Source of the DNA: an uncultured Pseudomonadota bacterium | GTDB taxonomy: Bacteria; Pseudomonadota; Gammaproteobacteria; Steroidobacterales; Woeseiaceae | Direction of reading: 5' to 3' | Assembly (NCBI GenBank): GCA_913055625.1 | Contig: CAJXJW010000003.1 | Location: forward strand, 1 to 64,000 | DNA: 64,000 nt | Shown: one piece after another, positions 12,695-51,872 of the stretch | Numbering within the stretch: the first letter of the stretch is position 1 | Layout of the letters: each line of letters opens with the position of its first letter | Notes under the pieces: model-generated | What the model was told of the DNA's origin: nothing | Database searches by the model: none | Seen by the model: the letters and a program-made list of their open reading frames with translations, nothing else | Translations under genes and position numbers: made by a program

Positions 12695-14836
12695 CTACTT
12701 CGCGATTCGCGGCCCGCTCTGCCCGCGCGTATCCAGCACGTAACGCACGCCCACGAAGACCACGTGCGCCGTGTAGTCCCACGGGCTCGCGCCGAGCGAC
12801 AGCAGGTTCGGCACCGTGGCGGGCTGCACGCCGTCCAGGTGCCAGTCGTCCGTGTCGAAGTTCTCGTAGAAGTACTTGAACTGGACGCTCAGCGCATCGC
12901 TGTACTGGTAGTCGAGCCCGAGCTGGAACTGCTGGAGACTGGACTCGAACGTGGGAAAGCGCGAGGCGAGGCCGTTCGTGCTGTTCGCCGTGTCGCCTTC
13001 CGATTCCGTGATCGCAAATTGCGCATTGAAATCCAGCCGGTCGATGATGTCCGGGAACGTGACGCCGAGATTCCCGGTGAAGAAACTGTCGTCGGTCGTG
13101 CTGGTCCAGTCCGGCGTTGCAAAGCCCTGGCTGTTCGCCATGGTCGACTCGACGTCCTCCTGGTACACCGCGCCGTAAACCGACATGCCGGACGCCGCCG
13201 CGTACGACCCTTCGAGGCCGTAGCGCGAGTACTCGCTGGCCTGTAACCCGACCAGCGAATCCGTGTAGTCATCCTCATTGACTTCTGCGTTCAAACCGAC
13301 GTTGATGCGCTCCGTCACGTAGGCGGAGACCGTGCCCTTGACGCCGTCCCGCTCGCGGTCCGCCATGTTGTACTTGCGCATCAGCGGGTTCTGCGGCGTG
13401 GCGACATTCTCGATCGGCGTATAGACGGAGCCGTCGCGATCCTCGGTGTAGAGTTCGATATCGACGTCGAGGTGCGGGATCGCGCGCGTCCGCAACTGCA
13501 CCCAGAGGCGATCCGTATCCGTCGTCCCGCGCTCCTGGCCGCTCCGCTGGAACTCTTCGACGTCGAAACCGGCCTGCACCTTCGTGCGGGACAGGACACG
13601 GTACTCGCCGCGCAGCCGGAACTCGCTGCGCTCGTAGTCGTAGGCGATATTCGTGGCACTGTCGGCAGCGTTGAACAGGTCCGTGACGACGTAGTTGAAT
13701 TCCCGCTCGGCGGTGCGGTTGTCACGCTCGTTGTAGCGGAAATCGCCCTCGACAGTGAGTTTCCGCATCGGCGATGACGTCACGCGCAGACCGACACTCG
13801 TCGTCTCGACCTCGGCGTCGGCCGACTGCGACGGCAGCAGGCCCGTCGCGATCTGCGAGTTGATCGTGTACGGCAGGAAGCTCTCATCCTGTTCCATGCG
13901 CCCGATGCTCGCGTGCCCCACCAGCGTCGTTCGTGCCGGCAGGATCATCGAGCCCGCCACGCGCAACTGGTGCGAGTCGTTGTCCGGTGCCCGCGCAAGC
14001 CGGCCGCTGTCCGCACCGGGTGACACCGCCGAAAAAGGATTGTCGAACGTCAGGCTCGAGACGCCATTGTCGAAGAACGCGCCCCAGTAGCTCGCGCTGA
14101 GGTGCCAGGTCTCCGCGCTGTAGTTGACGACTGCTTCCAACTCGTCGGTCGTGTCGACCACCGGGGACGCGAACATGGCGGCATCGAAGAAGTACGCGCC
14201 CGACGACATCGACTGGCCATCACGTTTCTGCTGCCGGTAATTGACGTCGAACGCCCACTGGCTGCTGACCTCGTACGCCATGCCGAGCTGCAGGATCGCC
14301 CAGTCGCGCTTGATATCGACCGGCTCCAGCGACGTGCCGAGTGCCGTCATGCCCTGCGTGGTCGGGGACCGCACCCACCCGCTCACGAGGTTCAGCTCGT
14401 CGTCGCCGCTCCGCCGGAACGGGGTCGCGGTCGTGTCGTAGAAGCGGCGCGGGATGCCCTGGTAGGACACCCGGTACGCATAGTGCCCCTGCTTGCCACC
14501 CTCGGCGAAGATCGCCTGCGAATCGAGCCCCAGCCGGTAGCCCTCGACGCGGAAGAACCGTGCATCCTCCCCCAGGTAGCGCGCGAACAGGTTGCCGGCG
14601 AAATACAGGCCGCTGTCGTCGAGGCCGGTGTAGTCGCCGAAGTGAAACAGGTCGTCGCCGGACACGCCGGCGAACCCGCCGGAAAGGTCGAGCTCCCAGC
14701 CGCTGCCGGTCGGGCAGAGCTCGCAAGCCGGCACCGGATCGTCATCGGCGTGCGCCAAAGCTGCAAGCAGAAGGCCGGGCGCGGCACAGATCACGGCGGC
14801 ACGGCCGAAAGCGGTGAACTGGCTGCGAACTGTCAT
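12695..14836 (-). CDS. MtrB/PioB-family outer-membrane barrel, EET locus 1
   Basis: The 713-residue precursor has a signal peptide ending near LAALAHADDD and, just after it, the CELC pair (CxxC) known from MtrB proteins. The rest alternates polar and aromatic residues in a way typical of a large beta-barrel of more than 20 strands, ending in an aromatic-rich strand (VVFVGVRYVLD). MtrB forms the sheath around the MtrA/DmsE cytochrome so that electrons can cross the outer membrane. It is the last gene of a leftward operon (OmcA/MtrC, 18-heme protein, DmsE, MtrB), 16 bases after DmsE. It is a paralogue of the barrel at 43985-46105. Confidence 0.88.
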   Translation of the reverse strand: MTVRSQFTAFGRAAVICAAPGLLLAALAHADDDPVPACELCPTGSGWELDLSGGFAGVSGDDLFHFGDYTGLDDSGLYFAGNLFARYLGEDARFFRVEGYRLGLDSQAIFAEGGKQGHYAYRVSYQGIPRRFYDTTATPFRRSGDDELNLVSGWVRSPTTQGMTALGTSLEPVDIKRDWAILQLGMAYEVSSQWAFDVNYRQQKRDGQSMSSGAYFFDAAMFASPVVDTTDELEAVVNYSAETWHLSASYWGAFFDNGVSSLTFDNPFSAVSPGADSGRLARAPDNDSHQLRVAGSMILPARTTLVGHASIGRMEQDESFLPYTINSQIATGLLPSQSADAEVETTSVGLRVTSSPMRKLTVEGDFRYNERDNRTAEREFNYVVTDLFNAADSATNIAYDYERSEFRLRGEYRVLSRTKVQAGFDVEEFQRSGQERGTTDTDRLWVQLRTRAIPHLDVDIELYTEDRDGSVYTPIENVATPQNPLMRKYNMADRERDGVKGTVSAYVTERINVGLNAEVNEDDYTDSLVGLQASEYSRYGLEGSYAAASGMSVYGAVYQEDVESTMANSQGFATPDWTSTTDDSFFTGNLGVTFPDIIDRLDFNAQFAITESEGDTANSTNGLASRFPTFESSLQQFQLGLDYQYSDALSVQFKYFYENFDTDDWHLDGVQPATVPNLLSLGASPWDYTAHVVFVGVRYVLDTRGQSGPRIAK

Positions 14837-14852: not shown

Positions 14853-15758
14853 TCACCGCATCAGCTTCGAGCCGGACGGATGGTTGGAGCCATGAACCTG
14901 CCGATGACAGTTCAGGCAGCTGCCGCCCACGACCATCGCCGATGGGTTGTTCCCGGGCAGGCTGTCCGGCGTGAACGAAATGCTCGGGTGGCCGCTTTGC
15001 GAATGGCACGACTGGCACAGCAACGGCGGGCTCCGCGTGAGGAGCGCCTGGTGTATCGAGCCGTGCGACTCGTGGCACAGCGAGCAGTCTTCGCTCGCCG
15101 GCGCGTGTTCGAACACGTACGGCCCCTTCAGGTCCGTGTGGCAACTCCAGCACAGCTCCGTCAGCGTATCCCGCTTCAGCAACGCATCCGTCGTCGAGTG
15201 GTGCGGGTTATGGCAGGACGTGCAGGCCATGACGTCGAAACGCACGGGGTGCGACGACGGCTTCATGCTGTCCGCCTGCTGCTCCCGGTGGCAGTCGAAA
15301 CAGACCTCGGCCTGCGAGGACTGCATCGTCACCGGGTCGGTGGGCTTGTGCACGCTGTGGCAATCGACACACGCGAGGTCGTTGCGCTCGTGGGCGCTCC
15401 CGTTCCACGGCAGGCCGACGTTGCCGGTGTGGCAGCCCATGCAGGCCGCGTTCTCGGACTCGGCCGTCGTACCGGGCTCATGATCGAAATTCACGACCGG
15501 CGCATGGCCGCCCCCGACGCCGCGCGTTCCCGCATGATCCTCGCCGGCGCCGTGGCAACTCTCGCACTGCTGGTTCGCGAACGGCGAATCCGGGTCCGCG
15601 CCCTGCCCGTGCGGCGTGCGGAAAATCAGCAGCATGCGCTCGTCGTTGTGACAGGTCAGGCAGGCATCCGCATCCACCCCGGGCTGCTGCGCATGACCGG
15701 GCGCGGCGAGCAACAGGCACAGGCCGAAGGCGCTGGCTACGGCGGCTAGCGGTCTCAT
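14853..15758 (-). CDS. DmsE/MtrA-type decaheme c-type cytochrome, EET locus 1
   Basis: The ATG at 15758 (MRPLAAVASAFGLCLLLAAP, signal cleaved near GHAQQ) gives 301 residues. Ten canonical CxxCH sites are present: CLTCH, CESCH, CMGCH, CVDCH, CFDCH, CTSCH, CWSCH, CSLCH, CQSCH and CLNCH. The protein ends with the family tail HGSNHPSGSKLMR. DmsE/MtrA proteins sit inside the MtrB barrel and form a ten-heme wire through the outer membrane. The start codon overlaps the stop of the 18-heme gene by four bases, so the two are translated together. An earlier in-frame start at 15842 was rejected because it would bury the signal peptide behind 28 residues. Confidence 0.92.
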   Translation of the reverse strand: MRPLAAVASAFGLCLLLAAPGHAQQPGVDADACLTCHNDERMLLIFRTPHGQGADPDSPFANQQCESCHGAGEDHAGTRGVGGGHAPVVNFDHEPGTTAESENAACMGCHTGNVGLPWNGSAHERNDLACVDCHSVHKPTDPVTMQSSQAEVCFDCHREQQADSMKPSSHPVRFDVMACTSCHNPHHSTTDALLKRDTLTELCWSCHTDLKGPYVFEHAPASEDCSLCHESHGSIHQALLTRSPPLLCQSCHSQSGHPSISFTPDSLPGNNPSAMVVGGSCLNCHRQVHGSNHPSGSKLMR

Positions 15759-17644
15759 CGTTGCTCCATCGTCGAGTGAATGGGTGCACCGCCCGCATGC
15801 TGGCGCGGAACGAGCTGGTGAACATCGTGACAGGTCGTGCAATTCAGCTGGTCGAAGACGATCGCCTTGTCAGCGAATCGCGGGTGCTCCGCGCGGCGGT
15901 CCTCGTGGCAGCCGTAGCAGCTCTCGGCCTGCGCCTGTCGGTCCTTGAGCACGTTGAACTCCGCGTGCACCGTGTGGCAACTCGCACACGCCAGGTCACC
16001 GGTCGCGTGAACGCTGTCGGTCCAGGCGATGGCCGCGACCCCGAGATCGGGCTCCGCGTGGCACGACGCGCAGTTTTCGGTCTGGCCGTGCGGGTCTTCC
16101 AGCAGGCTGCCGGCCACGTGCACCGTGTGACAACTCCGGCAGGAAACAGCGTCGTTCTCGTGCATGCTGCCTTCCCAGGCCACGAGCGGCGCCGCGTTGC
16201 CGGATTCGCTGTGGCAGTCGAGGCAGACACCCATTTCGTGCGTCGGGCTGGTCAGCAGGTTTGCTTCGGTATGCACCTGGTGGCAGTCGGTGCAGACCGC
16301 GTCGCGGCCATGCACCATGCCCGCCCAGGCGAGGTCCGTGAACCCGTCCTCGTGCCTATCATGGCAGCCGAGACAGGTATCGACCTGCGTCGAGAACGGC
16401 GTGTGTCCCTCGCGCCCGAACTCGATCATCGGCGGGCGTCCTTCGCCCCGGCTCGACTGCGATACGTGAATGCTGCCCGGGCCGTGGCAGGACTCACATT
16501 CCTGCTGGGCGAACGGCGAATGCGGGTTGCTGCGGTCGCCGTGCGGCGTCCGCTGGATCTGCGTCACGCGGTCGTCGGAATGGCAAAGCAGGCACTGCTC
16601 GGCACCGCGGGTCGTGAACGTGGCGTTCGGTCCGGGCGCGCCGGGCCCCTGCTGCGCCGACCGGGTGGCCGGGTGCATCGTGTGGCAGGTCGAACAGGAA
16701 ACGTCGTCGAAACCGGCGGACTTGCGGTGCGCGTCGATGGCGAGCATGGCGTCCCAGTCCGCGCGGTGGCAGCCCATGCAGGTCTGCTTCTGTTGCAGTA
16801 TCGGCGTCGCCGCGTTCTCGCCGAACGTGATCATGGCCGGCCTCGGGCCGCCCGCCGGCGAATTGACGTGCAGGCTGCCCTTCCCGTGGCAGGACTCGCA
16901 GCCCTGCTGCCCGTAGGGTGTCGCGGGATTGTTCGTATTGCCGTGCACGGTCCCGGCCATCCCGTGCATCCGCTGGTCGGCATGGCACAGCAGGCACTGC
17001 TCGGTGCCGCGTTCCGTGAACTGCGCGGTGCGCGTCAGGCGCTCGGCCAGCAGGGCCGATTCGGCGGTCACCTGCTCCGCGTGATCTGCCGTCACCTGGT
17101 GGATCGTATGGCAAGTCGAGCACGACAGGTCCATCATGTCGCCCGACACTCTCGCGTTGGCATGGCCGTCGATCTTCAGCAGTTCGTCCACGTGCTTGAC
17201 GTGGCAGCCCATGCACACTTCGACCTGCTGCTCGCGCGGCGTCCTGGCGCCCTCGCCGAACACGATCATCGGCGGCCGCCCCTGCCCTCGCCGGGACTGC
17301 GCCACGTGAAAGCTGCCAGGACCGTGACAGGACTCGCAACCGCGCTGGCCGAACGGCGTGTCCGGGTTACTGGCGTCACCGTGCGGCGTTTCGGCGATCA
17401 GCGTCATGCGCAGGCTTGCGTGGCAGAGGAGACAACGCCCGGCGCCTTCCTCGGTGTACTGCGGTGTCCTCGGATCAGTGTCGGCGCCCGCCTCCTGCGC
17501 CTGCACCACCGGTGCCGGCAGGATGAAGAAGATCAGGAGGCCGGCAATCGTCGCGGCAGCGCTCGCGAAGCCGCGACGCCTGTCAATCGACGGATTCGTC
17601 GGTCGTGGCGGCGTCAACGCCCTTCCTGTCTTCGCCGCAAACAT
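15755..17644 (-). CDS. 18-heme c-type cytochrome with triplicated DmsE-like tetraheme module
   Basis: The 629-residue protein has a long N-terminal signal/anchor (hydrophobic at about residues 28-45, possible cleavage at VVQAQ) and 18 CxxCH motifs, at Cys 71, 103, 144, 175, 217, 249, 289, 317, 351, 383, 424, 451, 474, 502, 525, 553, 576 and 602. The first twelve fall in three repeats of four with the same order (CLLCH, CESCH, CMGCH or CLGCH, CSTCH or CTDCH), near residues 65-190, 211-325 and 345-460. The last ten hemes (351-602) match the whole heme order of DmsE, so the protein is a DmsE with two extra tetraheme copies in front. It lies between the surface cytochrome gene and dmsE in one operon. 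A role as an extended periplasmic electron wire is inference. Confidence 0.93.
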   Translation of the reverse strand: MFAAKTGRALTPPRPTNPSIDRRRGFASAAATIAGLLIFFILPAPVVQAQEAGADTDPRTPQYTEEGAGRCLLCHASLRMTLIAETPHGDASNPDTPFGQRGCESCHGPGSFHVAQSRRGQGRPPMIVFGEGARTPREQQVEVCMGCHVKHVDELLKIDGHANARVSGDMMDLSCSTCHTIHQVTADHAEQVTAESALLAERLTRTAQFTERGTEQCLLCHADQRMHGMAGTVHGNTNNPATPYGQQGCESCHGKGSLHVNSPAGGPRPAMITFGENAATPILQQKQTCMGCHRADWDAMLAIDAHRKSAGFDDVSCSTCHTMHPATRSAQQGPGAPGPNATFTTRGAEQCLLCHSDDRVTQIQRTPHGDRSNPHSPFAQQECESCHGPGSIHVSQSSRGEGRPPMIEFGREGHTPFSTQVDTCLGCHDRHEDGFTDLAWAGMVHGRDAVCTDCHQVHTEANLLTSPTHEMGVCLDCHSESGNAAPLVAWEGSMHENDAVSCRSCHTVHVAGSLLEDPHGQTENCASCHAEPDLGVAAIAWTDSVHATGDLACASCHTVHAEFNVLKDRQAQAESCYGCHEDRRAEHPRFADKAIVFDQLNCTTCHDVHQLVPRQHAGGAPIHSTMEQR

Positions 17645-17657
17645 CGGTCAGCGCGCC

Positions 17658-19823
17658 TTAATCCACGTTCACGCTGTGCATGACCGCTACGTCGGCACTG
17701 CTTCCGGCGTCGTGACAGATCGTGCAGGTCTCCTGGATGACCGGTCCCGGGCTCCCACCCGCGCCACAGACATCCACGCGCACGCGGATCGTCCCGTCGT
17801 CCGCCTGGCAGGCGTCGAACGACCCGCCGTTCTGCTCCATGTGCGCCCGGGCCGTTTCGCTCGTATGGCAGGCGCCGCATGCCGAGGCATTCGGTGTAAC
17901 CCGAATGTTGTTGGACGGGTCGTCCAGGTCGCCGCCGGCATCAAAGCTGCTGGCCAGGACGCCGCTGTCCGGCGCGAGCGGGTAGAAGCCGTCGTCGGTA
18001 TGGCAGGCGACGCAGTTGCTCGAGCGCTGCGGATAACGCAGGCCGTCAGCCGTGTGCACTTCGTGAATGAACTTCTTGAAGTCGATGACACCGCCAATGC
18101 CACCGTGCAGGCCCACCGCCGCCGGGTCGTGGCACATGACACAGACCTGCAGATTGTTGGTCTGGTCGCCGTGGATGGCCAGCCGCTTGTGGCAATCGTT
18201 GCAGCGTTCGATATCGGCATTCATGCGCCGCGGCGTCGGGTTGGCCGGGTCGTCAGTGATGCCGAAGAACTCGTGCGTATTGTCCGGCCGCACGATGCCG
18301 ATCGGCTTGTCGATCCTGCCCGCAAACACGAGGCCGCCCGACCCCTCGGTGCCGAGCGGAATTCTTGCCAACGACATCGAGTACGTGAAGTCGCCATTGT
18401 CGGTGGCCTGCAGATCACCACCGACGATCGAATAGACCTCTGTCTGCGCCGCATGGCCGTCCAGCTGGCCCACGTTTTCGTAGTCCGTGGTCTCCCAGGC
18501 CATGTAGAACCTCAGGTGGCTGACGCCGCTCGAAAACTGAGGATCGTTGGCCAGGTCGTAGGGTGCGTCGCCATTGGTCGGATCGGTGACAGAGAACGTG
18601 ACCATGGGTTCTGTACCGGGCCCGAGAAAATCGATCGCGAGGATGTTCAGGCTGTAGCTGGCCGCGTCGAGTTCAGCCTCCAGCAGGTGCTTCTGGTACG
18701 CACCAAGCCCGCCCGTCGTATCCGGATCATGGCAGGTCGAGCAACGGTCGTTGCCCGACGGCCCGCCCGCGTGGCCAGCGCCGGTCGTGAAATCCACGTC
18801 GTCGTGGCAGGCGCCGCAGGCCTCCACCGTGGGTACCCGGTACCAGTTCGCGGCGTCAGGCGTTTCCGCATCGGCTTCGTCGTGGCAGGTCGTGCAGTTG
18901 CGTATGTCCTGCGGATGCGCAACATCGCCGTAACAATGCGCTTCGTCGTTCCTGCCGTAGATGCAGTAGTCGTCGCCACCGACGACGCTAGGCAGACCGG
19001 CGCCACGATGAATCTTGTGGATCATGACCGTCAAATCCACGGTGTTGCCGCTGTTCGCGTCCGTCGTACCGGGGTTGTGGCAGGTCTGGCACTGGTCCAC
19101 TTCAACCCGCGCGCCGCCGTGCAATGCCAGGTTCTCGTGGCAGGCGTTGCAGGATTCGGTCTTCACGATGGTCCGCGAGAAAATGCCCTCCGTCGCGCCA
19201 TCAGACGGACGGAACGTATAGACGGGGTTCGCGACCGGCGCATAGCCGCGGATCTCGAACGTCACGCGGTGCGTCAGGGCCGGGTCGTAGGCCACCGGGA
19301 TCGGGTCGGTGACGTTCGCAACGTCCGTCGCAAACGTGTACGTGTACGCGCCGTTACCGGACGAATCCTCTTCCAGCGTGCCGCTGCTGCCACTTTCGGT
19401 GCCGGCCTGCGCCACCGAAGCCGTGCCGGGTCCGGCGCCGGGGTCCTCGATCGAATTGATGTAGCTCTGCCACGCGCTCGCATTGCCGTCGGTGCCCGGC
19501 ACCAGTTTGGCCACCGTAAAGCTGATCGCGTCCGCCGGGAGGTTCCGGACCGGGGCGCCGTTCTGATCGAACAGCGTGAACGTGACGACCGGCGGGCTCG
19601 CGATGGTGACGCCGGTGATCTCGGCGACAATCTCTTCCGCGGCCGCGATGTCGACGCCCGACGGCGGGCCCGGCGGCCCCGGCGGGCCGGGCGGGCCCGC
19701 CGGTCCTGTCTCACCGTCATCGCCTTCGCAGGCGCCGAGCAACAGGGCCATGCAAACGAGTCCGGCAAGCGTCGCCGTGCGCGAGTGTTCGTTGCGGCCG
19801 AGGAAGGAGACGGTGCTCATCAT
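17658..19823 (-). CDS. OmcA/MtrC-family surface decaheme lipoprotein with collagen-like stalk, EET locus 1
   Basis: The 721-residue protein starts at ATG 19823 (a second ATG is adjacent at 19820), behind a GAAGAG ribosome site. A lipobox (LLLGAC, Cys32) is followed directly by Gly-Pro-Pro repeats (residues 38-54). Ten hemes fall in two groups of five: Cys 225, 245, 310, 336, 361 and Cys 541, 561, 604, 649, 700. They are separated by beta-rich domains, as in the four-domain MtrC/OmcA fold. Extra cysteine pairs (287/297 and 672/686) could form disulfides. Such proteins sit on the cell surface, take electrons from the MtrB/DmsE conduit and reduce metals, electrodes or other extracellular acceptors. 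The acceptor here is unknown. A much longer open frame upstream has no signal peptide and was not used. Confidence 0.92.
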   Translation of the reverse strand: MMSTVSFLGRNEHSRTATLAGLVCMALLLGACEGDDGETGPAGPPGPPGPPGPPSGVDIAAAEEIVAEITGVTIASPPVVTFTLFDQNGAPVRNLPADAISFTVAKLVPGTDGNASAWQSYINSIEDPGAGPGTASVAQAGTESGSSGTLEEDSSGNGAYTYTFATDVANVTDPIPVAYDPALTHRVTFEIRGYAPVANPVYTFRPSDGATEGIFSRTIVKTESCNACHENLALHGGARVEVDQCQTCHNPGTTDANSGNTVDLTVMIHKIHRGAGLPSVVGGDDYCIYGRNDEAHCYGDVAHPQDIRNCTTCHDEADAETPDAANWYRVPTVEACGACHDDVDFTTGAGHAGGPSGNDRCSTCHDPDTTGGLGAYQKHLLEAELDAASYSLNILAIDFLGPGTEPMVTFSVTDPTNGDAPYDLANDPQFSSGVSHLRFYMAWETTDYENVGQLDGHAAQTEVYSIVGGDLQATDNGDFTYSMSLARIPLGTEGSGGLVFAGRIDKPIGIVRPDNTHEFFGITDDPANPTPRRMNADIERCNDCHKRLAIHGDQTNNLQVCVMCHDPAAVGLHGGIGGVIDFKKFIHEVHTADGLRYPQRSSNCVACHTDDGFYPLAPDSGVLASSFDAGGDLDDPSNNIRVTPNASACGACHTSETARAHMEQNGGSFDACQADDGTIRVRVDVCGAGGSPGPVIQETCTICHDAGSSADVAVMHSVNVD

Positions 19824-19997: not shown

Positions 19998-20645
19998 ATG
20001 GTCGAAAAGAACGAGAAAGAACAGACCGAAGGCCGCCTGCAACGTCTCTGGCGGAAACCGAAGTACTGGTGGCTGCTCGGCATACCGGTCGGTGCCTGGG
20101 GCATGTTCGTCATCGGCCTCGCGTCGATGGTCGGCTTCGAAGTCATGATCCACGAGACCGGCACCGAGAAGTTCTGCGCCGGCGCCTGCCATTCGATGGA
20201 AGCGTTCACGGCCCCCGAGTACCGCGACTCCATTCACTACACCAGTGCCAGCGGCGTCCAGGCGACCTGCTCCGACTGCCACATCCCGCACGTCTACCCG
20301 CAGAAACTCTGGGTCAAGGCCACGAGCGGCACGCGTGACATCATCGGCGAGATTCGGGGCATCATTGATACCCGCGAGGAGTACGAAGCGAAACGGCAGC
20401 ACATGGCGGAGCGCGTCTGGGCGACCATGAAGGAAACCGACTCGCGCGAATGCCGCTACTGCCACAACGCCGAGGTGTTCGATATCTCGGCGCAAAGCGA
20501 ATTCGCAGCGCGCGCACACGAGCAGGGCCCGGCACAAGGCAAGACCTGTATCGACTGCCACAAGGGCATCGCGCATCTCTCGCCCGACGAGGCCGCCGTG
20601 AAGTTCGCCACCTCCGTTCCGGGCGCCGACACGGGCGCGGACTAG
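19998..20645 (+). CDS. NapC/NirT-family tetraheme quinol dehydrogenase with an atypical first heme site, EET locus 1
   Basis: The 215-residue protein has one N-terminal membrane helix (residues 25-47: WWLLGIPVGAWGMFVIGLAS) and a periplasmic heme domain. Three canonical heme sites are visible (CSDCH at 91, CRYCH at 152, CIDCH at 184). The first site reads C60-AGA-C64-H65, with three residues rather than two between the cysteines. NapC/CymA proteins oxidise menaquinol or ubiquinol and hand electrons to periplasmic cytochromes. The gene is divergent from the OmcA/MtrC operon across 174 bases and is the obvious quinone entry point for locus 1. The start at 19998 was chosen over an upstream ATG because it places a short charged tail before the helix. 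Its end overlaps the convergent TonB receptor by four bases. Confidence 0.9.
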   Translation: MVEKNEKEQTEGRLQRLWRKPKYWWLLGIPVGAWGMFVIGLASMVGFEVMIHETGTEKFCAGACHSMEAFTAPEYRDSIHYTSASGVQATCSDCHIPHVYPQKLWVKATSGTRDIIGEIRGIIDTREEYEAKRQHMAERVWATMKETDSRECRYCHNAEVFDISAQSEFAARAHEQGPAQGKTCIDCHKGIAHLSPDEAAVKFATSVPGADTGAD

Positions 20646-22884: not shown

Positions 22885-23739
22885 GTGAGCACGAGCAGCG
22901 ATTCTGGCCTGAACTTCTTCGCTTACGCCAGAAACTTCTTCAGCAACGACTTTCTCCCGCAGCAGGTGACCTGGGCGTTTGCCCTCCTCCTGCTCTCGCT
23001 CGTCGCGGTGATGGCCGGGCTGGTCCTCGTCCGCCGTGCGTTCGGCATGCCGCGCCACAGCACGACGGGTGCCCTGCCGCCGTCGGAGGTCGTTACCGTC
23101 GAGCGTTACGAAATCGGCGCCCGGCTGTGGCACCTGGGCCTCGCCGGCATGATGCTCGCCCTGTGGATCTCGGGCGCCGCGTTCTATTCGCCCGGCATCG
23201 TTCCCGGCCCGGTGCCCATCATCGGCATGAGCTGGCTCTGGGTGCATCTCATCATGGCTGCCATGTTCATGGCCGGTCTCCTCGTGCACGTCATCAAGGC
23301 GCCGCTGATCGGCTGGCGCACGATGGTGTTCGACCGCGGCGACTGGAAGCAACTCGTCGCCACTACCCGCTACTACCTCGGCCTGCCACACGAAATTCCG
23401 AAGCTCGGCAAGTACGCGGTCTCGAGCAAGGTGTTTCATGTCCTGCTCATCGTACTCACGGTGGTCATGATCGTGACGGGCATCAGCCTCACGATGGGCA
23501 CGCTCGGCTGGTCGGACGTGGACCAGGAGTGGCAGCGCAAGCAGCGGTTGCTGCACGACATCGGGTCCTGGAGCTTCCTGGCCCTGATCGCCGGCCACGT
23601 GTTCTGGCAATTCCTGAAGAGCCGGTCCCAGATGAAGGCGATGGTCACCGGCACGATCGATGCCGAGACGTTCAGCGAGCATCACGACTGGGATCGCTGG
23701 AAGCCTGACGTGATCGAAACCAGGACGGGAAAGGATTAG
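22885..23739 (+). CDS. Di-heme-type membrane cytochrome b, partner of the molybdoenzyme
   Basis: The 284-residue membrane protein starts with GTG at 22885 behind GGGAGGG. Its hydrophobic segments are near residues 28-48, 80-100, 112-132, 184-205 and 225-243. Possible heme-ligand histidines lie in RLWHLGLAG, WVHLIMAAM, LLVHVIKAP, KVFHVLLIV, LLHDIGSW and IAGHVFW. This resembles the gamma subunits of formate dehydrogenases and the b-type subunits of hydrogenases, which exchange electrons between a periplasmic enzyme and the quinone pool. It sits seven bases before the exported molybdoenzyme gene, so it is probably that enzyme's membrane anchor and quinone link. The exact number of hemes is not certain. 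Confidence 0.82.
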   Translation: MSTSSDSGLNFFAYARNFFSNDFLPQQVTWAFALLLLSLVAVMAGLVLVRRAFGMPRHSTTGALPPSEVVTVERYEIGARLWHLGLAGMMLALWISGAAFYSPGIVPGPVPIIGMSWLWVHLIMAAMFMAGLLVHVIKAPLIGWRTMVFDRGDWKQLVATTRYYLGLPHEIPKLGKYAVSSKVFHVLLIVLTVVMIVTGISLTMGTLGWSDVDQEWQRKQRLLHDIGSWSFLALIAGHVFWQFLKSRSQMKAMVTGTIDAETFSEHHDWDRWKPDVIETRTGKD

Positions 23740-23746
23740 AGCGACG

Positions 23747-26700
23747 ATGGACGACAAGACCCGCAAAGAAAACGACGAGCCGGCTTCCACTTCCCGCCGA
23801 TCGTTCCTGACCGGCGCAGCCGGCGTCGGCGTCGCTGCCGTCGGCATCGGCGGCGCGAAGGTTGCGCTCGACGAAGCAAGGAAGGAACCGACTGCCGAAG
23901 CGTTGCGTGCGCCGGAAGCCGATTCACTCTCGGACATCACGCTGGAGGTCAACGGCAAGAGCGTGAACGTGTCCGTGCCCGACCACCGGTCGCTGCTGCT
24001 CGTCCTGCGCGAGGACCTGGGCCTGACTGGCACCAAGAAGGGCTGCAACCTGGGGGAGTGCGGCGCGTGCACCATCCTCGAGAACGGCAAACCCGTCTAC
24101 GCCTGCCTCAAGCTCGCCAAGGATGCCGTCGGCAGCCAGATCACGACCATCGAAGGGCTGGAAACTGAAGGCCGCCTGCACCCGCTGCAACAGGCGTTCA
24201 TCGACCACGCGGGAAGCCAGTGCGGCTTCTGCTCCCCGGCGATGATCATGAGCGGTGCCGGCCTGCTGCTCGAGAACCCGAATCCGACGCCGGAGGAAGT
24301 ACGCACCGCCATTTCGGGCGTCATCTGCCGCTGCGGCAATTATCCCCACGAAGTCGACGCGATCCTGGCCGCGGCGAAGACGCCGACCGGAACGGTAGCC
24401 GCCGCTGCCGCGGGCGCCACAGCCTACATGCCGCGAACCACCGGGCAGAACAAGCCGTATCCCCGGAACGAGATCGATCCGCGCGTCGAGATCAAGCGGG
24501 TCGACGACACCGAGAACCTGGCCGCCCTCCACCGGCCGGTGAAGCCGCTGGACGGCTACGCGAAAGCGACCGGCCGCGCGCGGTATTCCGGCGACATCGG
24601 CTTCCATTCCGACGACCCGCTGCGCGACCCGCTGTGCGCGAAGGCGCTGCGCTGCCCGCATGCGCACGCGCAGGTCGTGAGCTTCGATGACAGCAAGGCC
24701 CGCGCACTGCCGGGTGTCCGGGCGATCGTCTCGTTCAAGGATGTCGTCGAATCCGAGCGGCGCCAGCGGGCCTTCCTGTCCGGCCACGCCCGCTTCGTCG
24801 GCGAGGCCATCGCCGTGGTGGCGGCCGACACGCAGGATATTGCGCAGCAGGCGCTGGAACTGATCGACGTCCGCTGGAAGGTGCTCGAGACGTTCGGCGA
24901 TGCCGAAGAGAACCTGCGGACGGACAATCGGCAGATTCACGCCACCGGCAGCGTCTGCGGCTTCGGCGGTTCGCAGCCGGCCGACGTGCCGACCTGGGAG
25001 GCGCGCGTCGGCGACCTCAACGCCGGCTTCGCGGAGGCCGACCACATCATCGAGGGGCGCTACGCGATGGGCCGGCAGGTCACGCTGCCGATCGAGACGC
25101 ACGTCTGCACCGCACTGTGGAAGGGCGACGACCTGCACCTGTGGGACTGCCAGCAGAGCGTGTTCGCGGCCCGCACGACCATCGCCGACACGCTGGACAT
25201 GCCGGAGGAAAAAGTTCACATCTACGCCGACTACATCGGCGGCGGCTTCGGCGGCAAGTGCCTCGACTATCCGGACGAAGACCTCTACCAGTTGTACGCC
25301 GCGATCCTCGCGAAGAAGACCGGCAAGGCGGTGCGCTACGAGTTCACGCTGAGCGAGGAAATGGCTGCCGGCGACAGTCGTCACCCGTTCATCTTCGAAA
25401 CGAAGTGGGGCGTCAAGAACGACGGCACGATTACGGCCCAGTACTGGAACGTGATCGCCGATACCGGTGGTTACGGGTCCTCGGGACCCGCGGTCGTGCT
25501 GATCGCCTGCCTGCGGCTCGTCGGCGCCTACCGTACGCCGAACTACACGGTGGAGGCCTACGGCGTCTACACGAACAACCAGGTCGGCGGCGAATTCCGT
25601 GGCTTCGGCGGCCTTCAGGGAACAGTCGCGCAGGAACTGCACGCGGACAAGGTCGCGCACGAACTCGGCCTCGACCCGATGGAGTTCCGGCTGAAGAACA
25701 CGAAGCGCCCCGGCGACCTGATCAACAATGACGACCCGTTCGGCTACGCGGACATCGACTCGACCGTGCGCCTCGCCGCGGAGCGCATCGGCTGGGAGAA
25801 CTGGCAGCCGCCGTCCGCGAAGACCGGTTACAAGCGCCGCGGGCTCGGCATGATGCAGGGCCCGATGCCGAGCGGTCGCGAAGCGAGCGACGGGCTCGTC
25901 TGGATTGATCGCAACGGCACGGTGCACGTCCGGCTCGGTGCCGGCAACCTCGGCAATCTCGCGCACACCGGCATGTCTGTGATCGTGTCCGAGGTACTCG
26001 GCGTACCGGTCGAAGACATGCGCGTGACCTGGGCGAACTCCGATCGTGACGCCTGGACGTTCACCACCGACTCGTCGCGCACGGTACCCTGCGACGGCAA
26101 GGCCGTGTACGGCGCCGCCAAGGACTGCGAACGACAGCTACTCGCGCTCGCCGCACAGCATTTCGGCGTCCCCGAGGGCGAGCTCGAAGTACGCGCCGGA
26201 ACGGTCGGCAAACGCGGCTCGGGCGAGTCCGTCGATTTCCGGACGCTCGCGCGACTGGCCGAGCCTCGCACCGAGTTCGACCCCTGGTGGGAGGAGACCG
26301 ATCAGAACCCGTGGTTCGACCAGAACACCGGCAAGATCGACCCCAAGCCGAAGATGGTGTGCACGGAATCGACGCAGAACGCCGCACGTCGCGCATTGGC
26401 CGAGGGCGGCGGCATCGTCGGCCTCGGTCGCTACGTGTACGACCTGACGACGAATGCCTGGGGCTCGTGCTTCGCCGAAGTCGAGGTCGACATGCGCACC
26501 GGCCAGGTCGACATCCTGAAACTCGTTGTTGCACACGACGTGGGCCGCGTGCTGTACCCGGCCGGCGCCGAGGGACAGATCCACGGCGGCGCGCTGCAGG
26601 GACTGGGCTACGCGATGACCGAGGACCTGCTCCTCGACCCGCATTCGCGTGCGGCCGTCAACACGTCCTTCCACGAGTACCGGCCGCCGACATCCCTGGA

Positions 26701-26926
26701 CTATCCCGAGATGGTGCCGATCCTGGTCGAGGCGCCGAGCCGCAGCGGCCCATTCGGCGCCAAGGGGCTGGGCGAAAGCCCGATCATGGGCCCGGCGCCC
26801 GCGATCGGCAATGCAATACTCAACGCCACCGGCGTGTTGTGCCCGCACATTCCCTACACGTGGGACCGGGTCCACGACACCCTGAAAGCCGCCGGAAAAC
26901 TCATGACCGGGGAAGCCAGCGCATGA
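23747..26926 (+). CDS. Tat-exported fused [2Fe-2S]/molybdopterin hydroxylase (xanthine oxidase family)
   Basis: The 1059-residue protein fuses what are normally two subunits. A twin-arginine signal (SRRSFLTGAAG, Arg17-Arg18) is followed by a two-cluster ferredoxin module: Cys100, 105, 108 and 120 for the plant-type [2Fe-2S], and Cys159, 162, 194 and 196 (QCGFC and CRCG) for the second. The molybdopterin domains begin near residue 250 (RPVKPLDGYAKATGRARYSG). They contain YIGGGFGGK, EFRGFGGLQG and, near the C terminus, FGAKGLGESPI with the likely active-site Glu. The organisation recalls periplasmic aldehyde oxidoreductase PaoABC, but with PaoA and PaoC joined. It overlaps the FAD subunit gene by four bases. 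The substrate (aldehyde, N-heterocycle or aromatic) cannot be read from sequence. Confidence 0.88.
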   Translation: MDDKTRKENDEPASTSRRSFLTGAAGVGVAAVGIGGAKVALDEARKEPTAEALRAPEADSLSDITLEVNGKSVNVSVPDHRSLLLVLREDLGLTGTKKGCNLGECGACTILENGKPVYACLKLAKDAVGSQITTIEGLETEGRLHPLQQAFIDHAGSQCGFCSPAMIMSGAGLLLENPNPTPEEVRTAISGVICRCGNYPHEVDAILAAAKTPTGTVAAAAAGATAYMPRTTGQNKPYPRNEIDPRVEIKRVDDTENLAALHRPVKPLDGYAKATGRARYSGDIGFHSDDPLRDPLCAKALRCPHAHAQVVSFDDSKARALPGVRAIVSFKDVVESERRQRAFLSGHARFVGEAIAVVAADTQDIAQQALELIDVRWKVLETFGDAEENLRTDNRQIHATGSVCGFGGSQPADVPTWEARVGDLNAGFAEADHIIEGRYAMGRQVTLPIETHVCTALWKGDDLHLWDCQQSVFAARTTIADTLDMPEEKVHIYADYIGGGFGGKCLDYPDEDLYQLYAAILAKKTGKAVRYEFTLSEEMAAGDSRHPFIFETKWGVKNDGTITAQYWNVIADTGGYGSSGPAVVLIACLRLVGAYRTPNYTVEAYGVYTNNQVGGEFRGFGGLQGTVAQELHADKVAHELGLDPMEFRLKNTKRPGDLINNDDPFGYADIDSTVRLAAERIGWENWQPPSAKTGYKRRGLGMMQGPMPSGREASDGLVWIDRNGTVHVRLGAGNLGNLAHTGMSVIVSEVLGVPVEDMRVTWANSDRDAWTFTTDSSRTVPCDGKAVYGAAKDCERQLLALAAQHFGVPEGELEVRAGTVGKRGSGESVDFRTLARLAEPRTEFDPWWEETDQNPWFDQNTGKIDPKPKMVCTESTQNAARRALAEGGGIVGLGRYVYDLTTNAWGSCFAEVEVDMRTGQVDILKLVVAHDVGRVLYPAGAEGQIHGGALQGLGYAMTEDLLLDPHSRAAVNTSFHEYRPPTSLDYPEMVPILVEAPSRSGPFGAKGLGESPIMGPAPAIGNAILNATGVLCPHIPYTWDRVHDTLKAAGKLMTGEASA

Positions 26927-43984: not shown

Positions 43985-46105
43985 CTATTCGCCGGCGGCG
44001 GTCGCGGCGAGATCGTAGCGGAAACCGATGCCGAACAGGACCTGCTCGTCGTCATACGGCGTCGCACCAAGCGACAACACGGACGGAATCGTCGCGGGCC
44101 CGACACCGTCGAGCATCCAGTCGTCCGCCTCGAACATCTGCCACGTCAGGCCGAACTCGAGCAGCAAGCGTTCGGACCAGCGATAGTCGACGCCAACGTG
44201 CAGCGCATCCTGTCGCGTCTCGAATTCGGGAAACGTGTCGGCGCCGCCGGCCAGGGAGTCGATGCGCGTTTCCGACGCGCTGTCCGACTCGCGGTAGTCG
44301 ATGCGCAGGTCGGCCTTGTCGGCAATCTGGCGAATCCGGATCCCGGTGCCGACCGTCGCGAAATCATCCTCGACGTCCGCCGACCAGTCCGGATCGCCGA
44401 ACGATTCGCTACCCACCTGCCGCGACTCCATCGTGTCGATGCCGATGTCGACGTACCACGACACCGTTTCACTGATCGTCCAGTTCAGGTCGGCCGTGAA
44501 GCGCGTTTCCTTGCCCTCGGTCACGCCGAGGCGCGACTCCGTGTAGCTGTCGTCTGCATACAGGCCGTTCAACGCCACGGTGATCGGCCAGTCCACCGGC
44601 GTGATGCCCGCGGTGAAGCGCGCGAACTCGCGGTAGCGGTACGCGAGGTTGTACTTGCGCAGCAGCGGGTTCTGCCCGAGCGACGTGGCGACGGTCTCGT
44701 CGTAGCGGCCGACGTCGCGCTTCTCGGCGCCGCCGCGTCCGTCGAGGGACAGCCAGTCCCAGGGACGCCAGCGGAACCCTAGCCAGCCGGTATCCTGCGT
44801 CTGCTCGGCCACCTCCTGGAAATCGCGGTCCGTCTCGCGACGCGATACCCCGCCGAGCAGTTTCAGGCTGCTGAAGAGCCGGTAACCCGCCTCTGCGGAC
44901 AGCAGTTGCTGCTGATAGCTGTACGGCGTGTTGAGCTCGTTGTCGCCGCTCGGGAAGGCATCCACGATCACTCGCTGCCAGGTCGCGCGCGCCGAGGTGT
45001 TGTCACGTTCGTCGGAACGGTAGAGAAGACGTACGTTTGCCTTCGGCAGTGGCCGCGATGACACCGAGAGCGCAAGATGGGTGACATCAACGCTGCCGTC
45101 CAGGTTCGGCCGTGGCAACGGGTCCGCGGCGATCGTCGTGTTCGTGGTGTACGCGAGGAACGGCGTGTCCTGCGTGATCTCGCCGATGGACGCCGACGCA
45201 CTGACGCTCGTCCGGAACAGCGGCATGTTCACGCCGCCACTCAATGTCAGCTGCTGGTAGCGGCTGTCGGGCGCCTGCGCGAGGGCCGGCATCTCCGCGC
45301 CCGCGGGCACGACGAACGGGTCCTGCCAGGCGAGCGCCGAACTCGCGCTCGACAGGTCGGACAGGAACCAGTCGAGTGCCACGCGCGCCGATTCGCCCTG
45401 GTAGGCCACGCGCAGCTCGATCTCGTCAGTCGTGTAGTCATAAGGGGCTGGCAACAGGCTTGCCGTCGTGTACGACGAGCCGCCCAGCGTCCGCGTGCCC
45501 TCGTTCTCGTGACGACGGAAGTCGACGGAAGCCACGATGCGCGGCGTCAGCGCGTAACGCACGCCGGCCCGCAGATCCGTGCGGTCTCCCTCGATGGCGA
45601 TGCCAGCGAGGCTCGACGCCAGCATCGAGAAGCCTGAGGTCTGCGGTGCCGCAATCCAGTCCGAAGGCAGCGAAAGCAGCGAATCCGAGGATGCGAACAC
45701 CGTTTCCGTCGTGAAATACTCGCGCCGAGGCAGCGCGTTGTACGACGCGTGGTAGCCGAAGCGACCCTGGCCGCCGTCGACCCGGGCGCTGCGCGAATCG
45801 AGCAGCAGGTCCACCGCATCCCAGCGGAGATAGTAGGCATCGCTGCTCAGCGTGCCGCGGCTGTCGAGGTTGCCGTACGCGCCGGACTCGTCGTAGCCCG
45901 TCGCGTCGCCGAAATAGGCCGAGTCGTCGCTGGCGCCGGTCGCACCCGCGGCAACGTCACCGTCGTAGCCGCCGTCGAACGGGCACAGCTCGCAGACCCA
46001 CTCGCTGGTGTCGACAGACTGCGCGTGCGCTGCCGCCGCACCGCCGATCACGAGGATCGCTGCGGTGCACGAGGAAATCAGCCGGCCTTGAAAGTGCGTG
46101 GTCAT
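43985..46105 (-). CDS. MtrB/PioB-family outer-membrane barrel, EET locus 2
   Basis: The 706-residue precursor has a signal peptide (ILVIGGAAAAHAQS), followed closely by CELCP, the same N-terminal CxxC as in the barrel at 12695-14836. Long alternating barrel strands fill the rest, ending FGIGFRYDLAATAAGE. Shared landmarks with the first copy include PRREYFTTETVF (first copy PRRFYDTTATPF), NPLLRKYNLAYR (NPLMRKYNMADR) and the end segment DGVGPATIPSVLSLGA (DGVQPATVPNLLSLGA). It starts six bases after the DmsE gene stop, so the three locus-2 genes form one leftward operon. Its role is the outer-membrane sheath of the electron conduit. Confidence 0.88.
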   Translation of the reverse strand: MTTHFQGRLISSCTAAILVIGGAAAAHAQSVDTSEWVCELCPFDGGYDGDVAAGATGASDDSAYFGDATGYDESGAYGNLDSRGTLSSDAYYLRWDAVDLLLDSRSARVDGGQGRFGYHASYNALPRREYFTTETVFASSDSLLSLPSDWIAAPQTSGFSMLASSLAGIAIEGDRTDLRAGVRYALTPRIVASVDFRRHENEGTRTLGGSSYTTASLLPAPYDYTTDEIELRVAYQGESARVALDWFLSDLSSASSALAWQDPFVVPAGAEMPALAQAPDSRYQQLTLSGGVNMPLFRTSVSASASIGEITQDTPFLAYTTNTTIAADPLPRPNLDGSVDVTHLALSVSSRPLPKANVRLLYRSDERDNTSARATWQRVIVDAFPSGDNELNTPYSYQQQLLSAEAGYRLFSSLKLLGGVSRRETDRDFQEVAEQTQDTGWLGFRWRPWDWLSLDGRGGAEKRDVGRYDETVATSLGQNPLLRKYNLAYRYREFARFTAGITPVDWPITVALNGLYADDSYTESRLGVTEGKETRFTADLNWTISETVSWYVDIGIDTMESRQVGSESFGDPDWSADVEDDFATVGTGIRIRQIADKADLRIDYRESDSASETRIDSLAGGADTFPEFETRQDALHVGVDYRWSERLLLEFGLTWQMFEADDWMLDGVGPATIPSVLSLGATPYDDEQVLFGIGFRYDLAATAAGE

Positions 46106-46111
46106 AACAAC

Positions 46112-47038
46112 CTACCGCATCAGCTTCGAGCCCGACGGGTGGTTCGACCCGTGGACCTGCGAATGACAGTTGAGGCAGCTCTCGCCCAGCAGAAAGCGCG
46201 ATGGCGTGCCGGACGCGAGGCCGCCCGTGTCCATCGCCACGCTGGGGTGGCCCGTTTGCGAATGGCAGGACTGGCACAGGACCGGCGCCCGCTGTGTCAG
46301 CATCGCCGGCTGGTTCGACCCGTGCGGCGAATGGCAGGTCGTGCAGTCTTCCGCGACCGGGGCATGCTCCCAGAGATACGGGCCGCGCTTCTCGGCGTGG
46401 CACTGGTCGCAGGTCTCGTTCACCGTGGCACGCACGAGCTCGCTGCCCACCACATCGCCGTGCGGGCTGTGGCAGGACGTGCAGGCCATCTTGTCCTCGA
46501 CGACGGGATGCGCGAACGCCTTGTGCATTTCAGTGCGCGTCGGCTGGTGGCACTCGTAGCAGACGTCCGCCTGCGAATCGGCCTGCCTCACCGGGTCGAA
46601 CGGGTCGTGCAGCCTGTGACAATCGACGCAGGCCAGGTCCTCGAAATTGTGTGCCGCATCGTGCCAGCCGAAGCCGACATCGCTGCCGTGGCAAGCGAGG
46701 CACTGGGCATTGCCGGCTTCGGCACTGCCCGTTCCGCTGCTCGCGAAGTGCGGCACCGGCGGTCGCTCCTGGCCGCGGCGCACACGACCCGCGTGGTCGT
46801 CGCCCGGCCCGTGGCACGCTTCGCATTGCAGCTGGCCCTGGCCGAACGGGCCGGTGTTCTGTCCCGGCCGGCCGTGCGGCGTGCGAAAGATCGCGTACAC
46901 CGCATCGGCCTCGTGGCAGGACAGGCAGGTATCGGCGCCTTTACGGCTGAAGTCCGGCGATTCCTCGTCTTGAGACGAGACTGGCCCTGGCGCCATGAGC
47001 GCCAGGGCCAGCAACAGACCGATCCGTCGCAGCGGCAC
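46112..47038 (-). CDS. DmsE/MtrA-type decaheme c-type cytochrome, EET locus 2
   Basis: The 308-residue precursor probably starts with GTG at 47038, giving a signal peptide (PLRRIGLLLALALMAPGPVSSQ) and an overlap of 18 nt with the end of the OmcA/MtrC gene. No suitable ATG exists. Ten CxxCH sites are present: CLSCH, CEACH, CLACH, CVDCH, CYECH, CTSCH, CDQCH, CTTCH, CQSCH and CLNCH. The C-terminal tail HGSNHPSGSKLMR is identical to that of the locus-1 DmsE. It would fill the MtrB barrel encoded next. Locus 2 has no 18-heme partner between OmcA/MtrC and DmsE, the main difference from locus 1. Confidence 0.9.
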   Translation of the reverse strand: MPLRRIGLLLALALMAPGPVSSQDEESPDFSRKGADTCLSCHEADAVYAIFRTPHGRPGQNTGPFGQGQLQCEACHGPGDDHAGRVRRGQERPPVPHFASSGTGSAEAGNAQCLACHGSDVGFGWHDAAHNFEDLACVDCHRLHDPFDPVRQADSQADVCYECHQPTRTEMHKAFAHPVVEDKMACTSCHSPHGDVVGSELVRATVNETCDQCHAEKRGPYLWEHAPVAEDCTTCHSPHGSNQPAMLTQRAPVLCQSCHSQTGHPSVAMDTGGLASGTPSRFLLGESCLNCHSQVHGSNHPSGSKLMR

Positions 47039-47052
47039 AGGTGGCCGAGCCC

Positions 47053-49272: not shown

Positions 49273-49479
49273 GACAGCACCCTCAATTCGCACCGGATTC
49301 GGCGCGTCCCCTGGTTTCCCGGTCTTCGCCCAGTCTGGACTCGTTTTAGCAAACCCGGTGCGGCATTCTTATTACGGGTTGTACCTATCGCTCCCGGAAC
49401 GCACCCTGGCGTTGCGGCAAGTACTTACGTGCTTGTAACGCGCGGGTCTTTGCAAGGGTGCTAACGTTGGCCGTGGCGC

Positions 49480-49517
49480 TATAATCAGGTGCCGATCAGC
49501 CTGCAACGCTGATCGGC
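49480..49517 (+). promoter_or_regulatory. -10 box followed by a 10-bp perfect inverted repeat
   Basis: TATAAT lies at 49480-49485. Immediately after the expected transcription start is GCCGATCAGC (49491-49500) and its exact inverse GCTGATCGGC (49508-49517), with a 7-base loop. No good -35 box is found at 17 bases, so an activator may be needed. The repeat could be an operator or a 5' mRNA hairpin of the diheme cytochrome operon. Confidence 0.45.
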
Positions 49518-49561
49518 CGCGGCGGCGTGGCGCGCCACCGTCTTCGCAGGAGTCCATAACG

Positions 49562-50170
49562 ATGAATCGCCCTACCCTCTTCTCTATTCTTGCGCTGGCT
49601 TGCGTATCCGCCCCGATGTCCGCGGCTGCCGTGGAGGAACTCGCGAGCGAGTGCAACGATTGCCACGGTGACAACGGAGTCAGCCAGTGGAGCGACATGC
49701 CCACGATCGCCGGCATCGACGCCTTCACCAGTTCCGAGGCACTGTACGCCTACCGCGACGAAGCACGCCCGTGCCACGAGTCGACATGGCGCCAGGGCGA
49801 CACGAGCCGCCCGGCGACGACGATGTGCGCGGAGACCACTGACCTCACCGACGAGCAGATCGAGGCGATCGCCGAACACTACGCCGGCTTGCCGTTCGTC
49901 GCCGCGAAGCAGGATTTCGACGCGGCACTCGCCGCCAAGGGCAAGGCCGTGCATGACGCCGGCTGCGACCGCTGCCATTCCGACGGCGGCTCGAACGTGG
50001 ACGACGAAGCCAGCATCCTCGCCGGCCAGCAGATGGGCTACCTGAAACTGGCGATGGCCGAGTACCGTTCGGGCGAGCGCGATCAGCCGGACAAAATGCA
50101 GGAAGAAATCGGCAAGCTCTCGGACGACGACGTCAAGGCGCTGCTGCACTACTACGCCAGCCAGCAATGA
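49562..50170 (+). CDS. Periplasmic diheme cytochrome c (c4-like)
   Basis: The 202-residue precursor starts at ATG 49562 with AGGAG nine bases upstream. It has a signal peptide (ILALACVSAPMSAAA) and two class-I cytochrome c domains with heme sites CNDCHG (Cys31) and CDRCHS (Cys135). The first domain is longer and contains extra cysteines (71 and 89). The closest families are cytochrome c4 and the diheme subunit of flavocytochrome c. It opens the rightward operon of locus 2 and probably shuttles electrons in the periplasm between NapC, the conduit and other partners. Its stop overlaps the next start by four bases. Confidence 0.87.
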   Translation: MNRPTLFSILALACVSAPMSAAAVEELASECNDCHGDNGVSQWSDMPTIAGIDAFTSSEALYAYRDEARPCHESTWRQGDTSRPATTMCAETTDLTDEQIEAIAEHYAGLPFVAAKQDFDAALAAKGKAVHDAGCDRCHSDGGSNVDDEASILAGQQMGYLKLAMAEYRSGERDQPDKMQEEIGKLSDDDVKALLHYYASQQ

Positions 50171-50559
50171 GTTCGGCACCGGATGTCGCGGGTCATGTCC
50201 GCGAACTGTTTGCGACCATCGACCGCAAGGACACGGACGGCTTCGTCGATTTCCTGACGGAGGATGCGGTCATTCGCTTCGGTTCCGGGCCGTCCGTCGA
50301 AGGGCGTGCCGGCATTCGCGAAATGATCGGCGGATTTTTCGCCAGCATCCAGGCCGTGGCGCACGATCTCGCCTTTGCAGAGCAGGTCGACAACCGGCTC
50401 ATTTGCGAAGGCACCGTCACCTACACGCGGCACGACGATTCCGCGGTGACACTCCCGTTCGCGAACGTGCTGGACCTGGCCGGCGACGGCCCGCGGCCGC
50501 CGATCCGGCACTACAAGGTCTACATCGACATCGCACCGCTGTACGCCGGCGGGGACTGA
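50167..50559 (+). CDS. SnoaL-like (NTF2-fold) protein
   Basis: The 130-residue product overlaps the cytochrome c stop (ATGA). It reads as a single cone-shaped NTF2/SnoaL domain: VRELFATIDRKDTDGFVDFLTEDAVIRFG, then VEGRAGIREMIGGFFASIQAV, then ICEGTVTYTRHDDSAVTLPFANVLDL and HYKVYIDIAPLYA. Family members include small isomerases, hydrolases and binding proteins. There is no signal peptide, so it is cytosolic despite its place in a cytochrome operon. Its role there is unknown. Confidence 0.82.
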   Translation: MSSAPDVAGHVRELFATIDRKDTDGFVDFLTEDAVIRFGSGPSVEGRAGIREMIGGFFASIQAVAHDLAFAEQVDNRLICEGTVTYTRHDDSAVTLPFANVLDLAGDGPRPPIRHYKVYIDIAPLYAGGD

Positions 50560-50581
50560 TCCAACCAGCGGCCGGCTTGTC

Positions 50582-51868: not shown

Positions 51869-51872
51869 GACG

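Follow-up and report, generated by a model that had tools for sequence, protein, structure and literature searches.

In the MtrCAB structure (6R2Q), MtrA spans 80 Å with 10 hemes, or about 8.9 Å per step; its C-terminal hemes face MtrC, with heme 10 placed for electron hand-over, and heme 1 stands approximately 20 Å into the periplasm, at the point of docking for soluble donors (PMC7198977). Superposition pairs Escherichia coli NrfB with hemes 1-5 of MtrA; Edwards et al. proposed that NrfB, STC and MtrA descend from a common ancestor, with MtrA arising by duplication (PMC7198977). In Shewanella the periplasm is 235 Å wide (PMC12114092), and the electrons of Mtr-type respiration may cross such a compartment either by means of small, diffusing cytochromes or through a fixed chain. 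Periplasm-spanning cytochromes are already known as an idea from PCC3, whose members have been proposed to bridge this compartment and carry a median of 21 hemes according to one study (PMC5566968) and 21-27 according to another (PMC10734462).

The locus described here bears on this choice, as the two arrangements seem to coexist in one genome, on conduits that are homologous to each other. Its distinguishing component is an 18-heme cytochrome that, judged from its sequence, is an uncommon, elongated form of a periplasmic NrfB-like cytochrome with six hemes rather than an enlarged MtrA.

An 18-heme cytochrome gene within an Mtr operon

The DNA analyzed is a stretch of 64,000 nucleotides (the window) from an uncultured, marine-sediment-type member of the Woeseiaceae, whose relevant features are collected in Table 1. 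In agreement with the number originally predicted, a single minus-strand reading frame, intact throughout, contains exactly 18 CxxCH sites between residues 71 and 602. Another 28 histidines reside outside these motifs, which is sufficient for bis-His ligation of all 18 hemes. The N-terminus carries a Sec-type signal, the cleavage site of which was read from the sequence by eye, and no lipobox was seen there on the same reading; the protein is thus predicted to be soluble and periplasmic. Because the GC and GC3 values of the gene are those of its neighbors, recent horizontal transfer is not claimed.

The gene is the second of four in a metal-respiration operon with the order OmcA/MtrC1, 18-heme protein, DmsE1, MtrB1. 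These genes are separated by gaps of only 13 and 16 bp, and the 18-heme stop codon and the DmsE1 start share a 4-bp ATGA overlap. A NapC/NirT-type gene (NapC1) diverges from the operon. The first heme site of NapC1 is CX3CH (CAGACH) instead of CxxCH, whereas NapC2 has CYVCH at this position.

A second Mtr cluster in the window, of a type that occurs across the family, lacks an 18-heme gene and serves as the comparison. It includes a gene for a PdsA-like diheme shuttle; unlike in cluster 2, no PdsA-like gene was recognized by cluster 1. After cluster 2 come genes of fumarate-reductase type, one for a cytochrome b (52492-53247) and one for an iron-sulfur subunit (55184-55921), and the region from 43985 to 55921 can be read as a putative anaerobic respiration island. 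Elsewhere in the window (22885-26926), a gene for a formate-dehydrogenase-gamma-like cytochrome b adjoins one for a fused FeS/molybdopterin protein resembling xanthine/aldehyde dehydrogenases, which has a Tat-like N-terminus.

Table 1. Positions in the window of the 18-heme cytochrome, its repeat units and the genes of both Mtr clusters.
Feature	Position	Strand	Details
18-heme cytochrome gene	15755-17644	minus	629 aa, mature ~579 aa; 32 aa per heme; apo 62 kDa
Sec-type signal peptide	17495-17644	minus	residues 1-50; putative cleavage between ...ILPAPVVQAQ and EAG, read from sequence
Module M1, hemes 1-4 (a b c d)	17096-17461	minus	module profile 235 bits
Module M2, hemes 5-8 (a b c d)	16670-17023	minus	module profile 218 bits
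Module M3, hemes 9-12 (a b c d)	16268-16621	minus	module profile 210 bits
Three diheme (d e) repeats, hemes 12-17	15905-16333	minus	residues 438-478, 488-530, 538-580
Terminal e-f unit and C-terminus	15803-15943	minus	HPRF..I.FD.L.C..CHDVHQL; common to hexahemes, absent from DmsE
OmcA/MtrC1 decaheme lipoprotein	17658-19820	minus (start 19820)	TIGR03507, 468 bits
DmsE1/MtrA	14853-15758	minus	301 aa, 10 hemes, C-terminus complete; 6r2q_A, E 1.5e-74
MtrB1 outer-membrane barrel	12695-14836	minus	TIGR03509, 446 bits
NapC/NirT-type inner-membrane cytochrome (NapC1)	19998-20645	plus	divergent from operon 1
Second Mtr cluster, without 18-heme protein	43985-52514	mixed	family-typical; comparison cluster
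MtrB2	43985-46105	minus	second Mtr cluster
DmsE2	46112-47131	minus	second Mtr cluster
OmcA2	47053-49293	minus	second Mtr cluster
PdsA-like diheme shuttle	49562-50170	plus	second Mtr cluster
NapC2	51855-52514	plus	second Mtr cluster

Tandem tetraheme modules and a probable hexaheme ancestry

As had been proposed from the order of the heme motifs, the first twelve hemes form three tandem four-heme repeats (M1-M3). Amino acid identity is 56% between M1 and M2, 52% between M1 and M3 and 47% between M2 and M3, and the alignments score 17-25 standard deviations above shuffles in which every heme motif was held in place. Linkers join M1 to M2 and M2 to M3, the latter being rich in glycine and proline. 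The modules also align above background with the neighboring DmsE1: M3 and the first four DmsE1 hemes are 45% identical (z = 18), M1 and M3 share 41-45% identity with DmsE1, and the first part of DmsE1 is homologous to all three modules.

Closer counterparts emerged from a scan of a species-genome collection with the module alignment. Six-heme NrfB-like proteins with the heme order abcdef are present in three genomes, with motif spacings of 32, 41, 28, 23 and 26 (39 in second place in one protein). The gene order is OmcA, hexaheme, DmsE, MtrB, nqrABC in Kangiellaceae OB12 (locus L059); OmcA, hexaheme, nqrA in the gammaproteobacterial MAG Dive96_bin10.204 (L057, L058); and nqrCDEF, a CBS-domain gene, hexaheme in Woeseiaceae MO_071.B18 (L060), where gene names other than OmcA, DmsE and MtrB reflect a reading of the translations. 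The L060 hexaheme is the same protein as that found in a genome (G1047) of the window's own genus. In two of the three genomes the hexaheme gene is not adjacent to DmsE, and no named family was found for the hexahemes of L057-L060.

The resemblance extends to the C-terminal portion of the 18-heme protein. A profile of the hexaheme d-e pair scores 25, 40 and 53 bits on its three successive diheme repeats, and a profile of the hexaheme tail scores 73 bits at residues 568-614, compared with 26 bits in DmsE1. The protein can be parsed as abcd-abcd-abcde-de-de-f, a putative expansion of abcdef. Heme order, C-terminus and, apart from the added units, spacing are shared with the hexahemes, and between its OmcA and DmsE genes L059 has the hexaheme in the position that the 18-heme gene takes here. 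In contrast, the hexahemes have six hemes and a single copy each of the abcd module and the de pair, where the 18-heme protein has eighteen hemes and three copies of each; relative to that group it is an expanded form rather than a plain member.

A tree built from 85 modules unites M1-M3 with the hexahemes in a single clade (support 100/97), separate from the DmsE rows, with M1 and M2 as sisters (96/94). DmsE1 pairs with the DmsE of L059 (97/80); DmsE2 groups with DmsE proteins from the host's own family. OmcA1 is likewise 52% identical to the L059 OmcA, as against 36% to OmcA2 in its own genome. An AU test did not reject a topology in which M1-M3 are held with DmsE1 (p 0.24), and so hexaheme ancestry rests on the clade support together with the C-terminus. 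The protein would have originated from a hexaheme abcdef by the gain of two extra N-terminal abcd copies and two extra internal de pairs.

Genes for the Na+-translocating NADH:quinone reductase (NQR) recur near Mtr clusters. They adjoin the clusters of L057-L059, lie beside the hexaheme in L060, and are no more than a few kb away in four of the ten relatives from the order (L115, L116, L118 and L120); in the window they occupy 58737-64000, approximately 6-9 kb from cluster 2. NQR and extracellular electron transfer may be functionally connected. A specific link between the hexaheme and NQR is weakened, since these four sister loci lack a hexaheme and are also near nqr.

A putative periplasmic relay

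The 18-heme protein is probably a soluble periplasmic relay of the Mtr pathway, derived from a hexaheme, that passes electrons from NapC1 to DmsE1; its partners and the direction of flow are inferred. Electrons from the quinol pool would enter NapC1 at the inner membrane and be handed to the 18-heme protein in the periplasm, which would in turn reduce heme 1 of the separate DmsE1/MtrA1 inside MtrB1. From there they would pass to OmcA/MtrC1 outside, and the whole path would run in reverse during uptake. By analogy, the protein would take the place probably held in cluster 2 by the diheme PdsA-like protein. Against such a role, nine sister OmcA-DmsE-MtrB loci presumably work without a gene of this kind. 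Within this reading, we favor a carrier of several flexibly joined modules that also stores electrons over a rigid wire: the M2-M3 linker is rich in glycine and proline, and the AlphaFold2 models are too poor for extension to be assessed (full protein, 6-row alignment, pLDDT 35.8 and pTM 0.23; M3 plus tail, 19-row alignment, pLDDT 51.6 and pTM 0.34).

Alternatively, the protein could be a static trans-periplasmic wire, its 18-heme chain touching both NapC1 and heme 1 of DmsE1 with no diffusing shuttle. At the MtrA step of about 8.9 Å, 18 fully extended hemes could reach approximately 150 Å; with heme 1 of MtrA some 20 Å inside a periplasm of 235 Å, about 65 Å would be left for NapC and the contacts, so that a fixed chain from NapC through the 18-heme protein to DmsE is just possible. 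That a PdsA-like gene was recognized by cluster 2 and not by cluster 1 is consistent with a wire, as is the proposal that the PCC3 cytochromes, with 21-27 hemes, act in this way (PMC10734462, PMC5566968). However, the arrangement demands full extension of a chain whose M2-M3 linker may be flexible, the periplasmic width is a Shewanella value that may not be that of this host, and the structural models are poor. A wire is therefore unlikely, although the likeliest of the alternatives to a mobile relay. Equally unlikely would be the fuller version, in which such a wire, evolved from a hexaheme carrier through duplication of modules, joins NapC to a separate MtrA-MtrB-MtrC conduit in a genome that also keeps a PdsA shuttle pathway, which would amount to a natural side-by-side of wire and shuttle.

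Less probable still is a loose connection to the Mtr conduit, the 18-heme protein acting as an electron store or as a donor to another periplasmic reductase. NrfB is the electron donor to NrfA, and the 18-heme protein scores 116.9 bits on the general NrfB-like domain PF22678, well above its cut-off of 27, but falls below the curated NrfB cut-offs (TIGR03146, 91.7 of 166.6; PRK11659, 127.7 of 184). Electron storage has also been suggested for large periplasmic cytochromes (PMC10734462). The four-gene operon with OmcA, DmsE and MtrB argues against so loose a connection; among the adjoining genes, neither nrfA nor another gene for a terminal reductase was recognized.

The last ten hemes in relation to DmsE

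The original prediction described the protein as DmsE plus two extra modules, with a 4+4+10 layout in which the last ten hemes follow the order seen in DmsE. Of these ten, alignment with DmsE reaches no further than about the first five. Residues 348-591 align with DmsE1 at 34% identity. From heme 3 onward, DmsE proteins have spacings of 24, 23, 26, 24, 22 and 23 with few exceptions (approximately 60 relatives, including both DmsE proteins of the window). The corresponding series in the 18-heme protein is 27, 23, 28, 23, 28, 23 and 26, and its last six hemes align with the last six of DmsE at chance level (z = 1.1). A profile of DmsE hemes 9-10 and C-terminus scores 91 and 98 bits in the two window DmsE proteins and nowhere exceeds 11 bits in the 18-heme protein, which lacks the C-terminal half of DmsE/MtrA, including heme 10 and the SCLNCHxQVHGSNHPSG end. 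Given these mismatches, 4+4+10 holds as a count of hemes, but the "10" is not a DmsE.

The DmsE family profile TIGR03508 leads to the same assignment. Its score on the 18-heme protein (281.8 bits; cut-off 192.2) adds up five separate stretches, and the best one covers positions 1-127 of 258, whereas DmsE1 matches positions 2-258 in one stretch and aligns with 6r2q_A to the final residue. By its match pattern, the 18-heme protein is not a whole-profile member of TIGR03508. The summed score is an annotation trap that would name it a "DmsE family decaheme cytochrome". Variants of DmsE-like layout were seen elsewhere: verrucomicrobial seven-heme proteins (L076, L079, L080, L081) have DmsE-like spacings of 32, 29-31, 26, 27, 22 and 23, and a DmsE-like protein in L061 (7608-8834) has an eleventh CxxCH about 99 residues ahead of the usual first heme.

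That the protein is itself an MtrA/DmsE with two added modules, inserted in MtrB, is thus highly improbable, in spite of the summed profile score and the 34% identity. Neither its spacing nor its C-terminus fits; moreover, its gene is overlapped by that of a complete DmsE, and the cluster has a single MtrB, directly after DmsE1. As the DmsE identity is unsupported, so is the idea that MtrA has been extended within MtrB. The long wire of the original prediction could exist in a different form, as a separate periplasmic protein bridging NapC and DmsE.

Distribution of the 18-heme form

Neither the complete protein nor the module profile retrieved a second multi-module protein from 296 genomes of the order, 369 of the class, 398 of the phylum and 107 of the family (overlapping samples; 1,915 genome searches counted in all). 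Nor did any of these samples yield an MtrA homolog of the same triplicated layout. A contig scan with the whole 18-heme protein returned 223 pattern matches and no relatives, and a plasmid collection returned only a Photobacterium DmsE.

Within the order, ten further genomes carry an OmcA1-type gene. Nine have DmsE and MtrB immediately after it, without an intervening cytochrome, and the contig of the tenth shows just OmcA and other cytochromes. The 18-heme gene is thus an occasional insert in an otherwise common OmcA-DmsE-MtrB operon. In one family of the order (f16), additional 13-heme and 5-heme cytochromes adjoin OmcA1-type genes (L120, 10363-13891; L123, 2955-6523).

Although the 18-heme form was seen in one genome only, an assembly or prediction artefact is scarcely credible: M1-M3 are just 68-70% identical in DNA with a longest exact common run of 13-16 bases, so the repeats are old rather than an assembly fault, the GC content agrees with that of adjacent genes, the frame is intact, all hemes are kept and the operon spacing is tight. 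Text searches of the open-access literature returned no description of such a protein. As far as these searches reach, a large, repeat-built NrfB-like cytochrome in an OmcA-DmsE-MtrB operon, with a six-heme counterpart at the same place in an operon elsewhere, is new.

Comparison with known systems

DmsE/MtrA (TIGR03508; Shewanella baltica MtrA, 6R2Q) shares with the 18-heme protein its first four or five hemes, which are homologous, and a low number of residues per heme, but differs in spacing and in the half that bears hemes 6-10 and the conserved end. NrfB (2OZY, TIGR03146/PRK11659) and NetB (NF049875), which are soluble periplasmic donors, have an a-e heme order like that of the 18-heme protein; NrfB, however, has 5 hemes, and no NrfA gene was recognized in the 18-heme cluster.

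The PCC3 of Sideroxydans and other Gallionellaceae, compared here by description, is also a repeat-built periplasmic cytochrome of an outer-membrane conduit. It differs in having 21-27 hemes, another porin and a five-helix inner-membrane b-type protein, in place of which the 18-heme cluster has MtrB (by its TIGR03509 match) and a NapC-type cytochrome. PdsA (NF049874), FccA and STC/CctA probably share the role proposed here, the carriage of electrons from NapC/CymA to MtrA, but are small proteins of 2-4 hemes with another layout (STC and FccA were compared by description). With both arrangements apparently present in one genome, and a hexaheme in the same slot in another, the dependence of reach and redox capacity on module number becomes testable in comparable systems.
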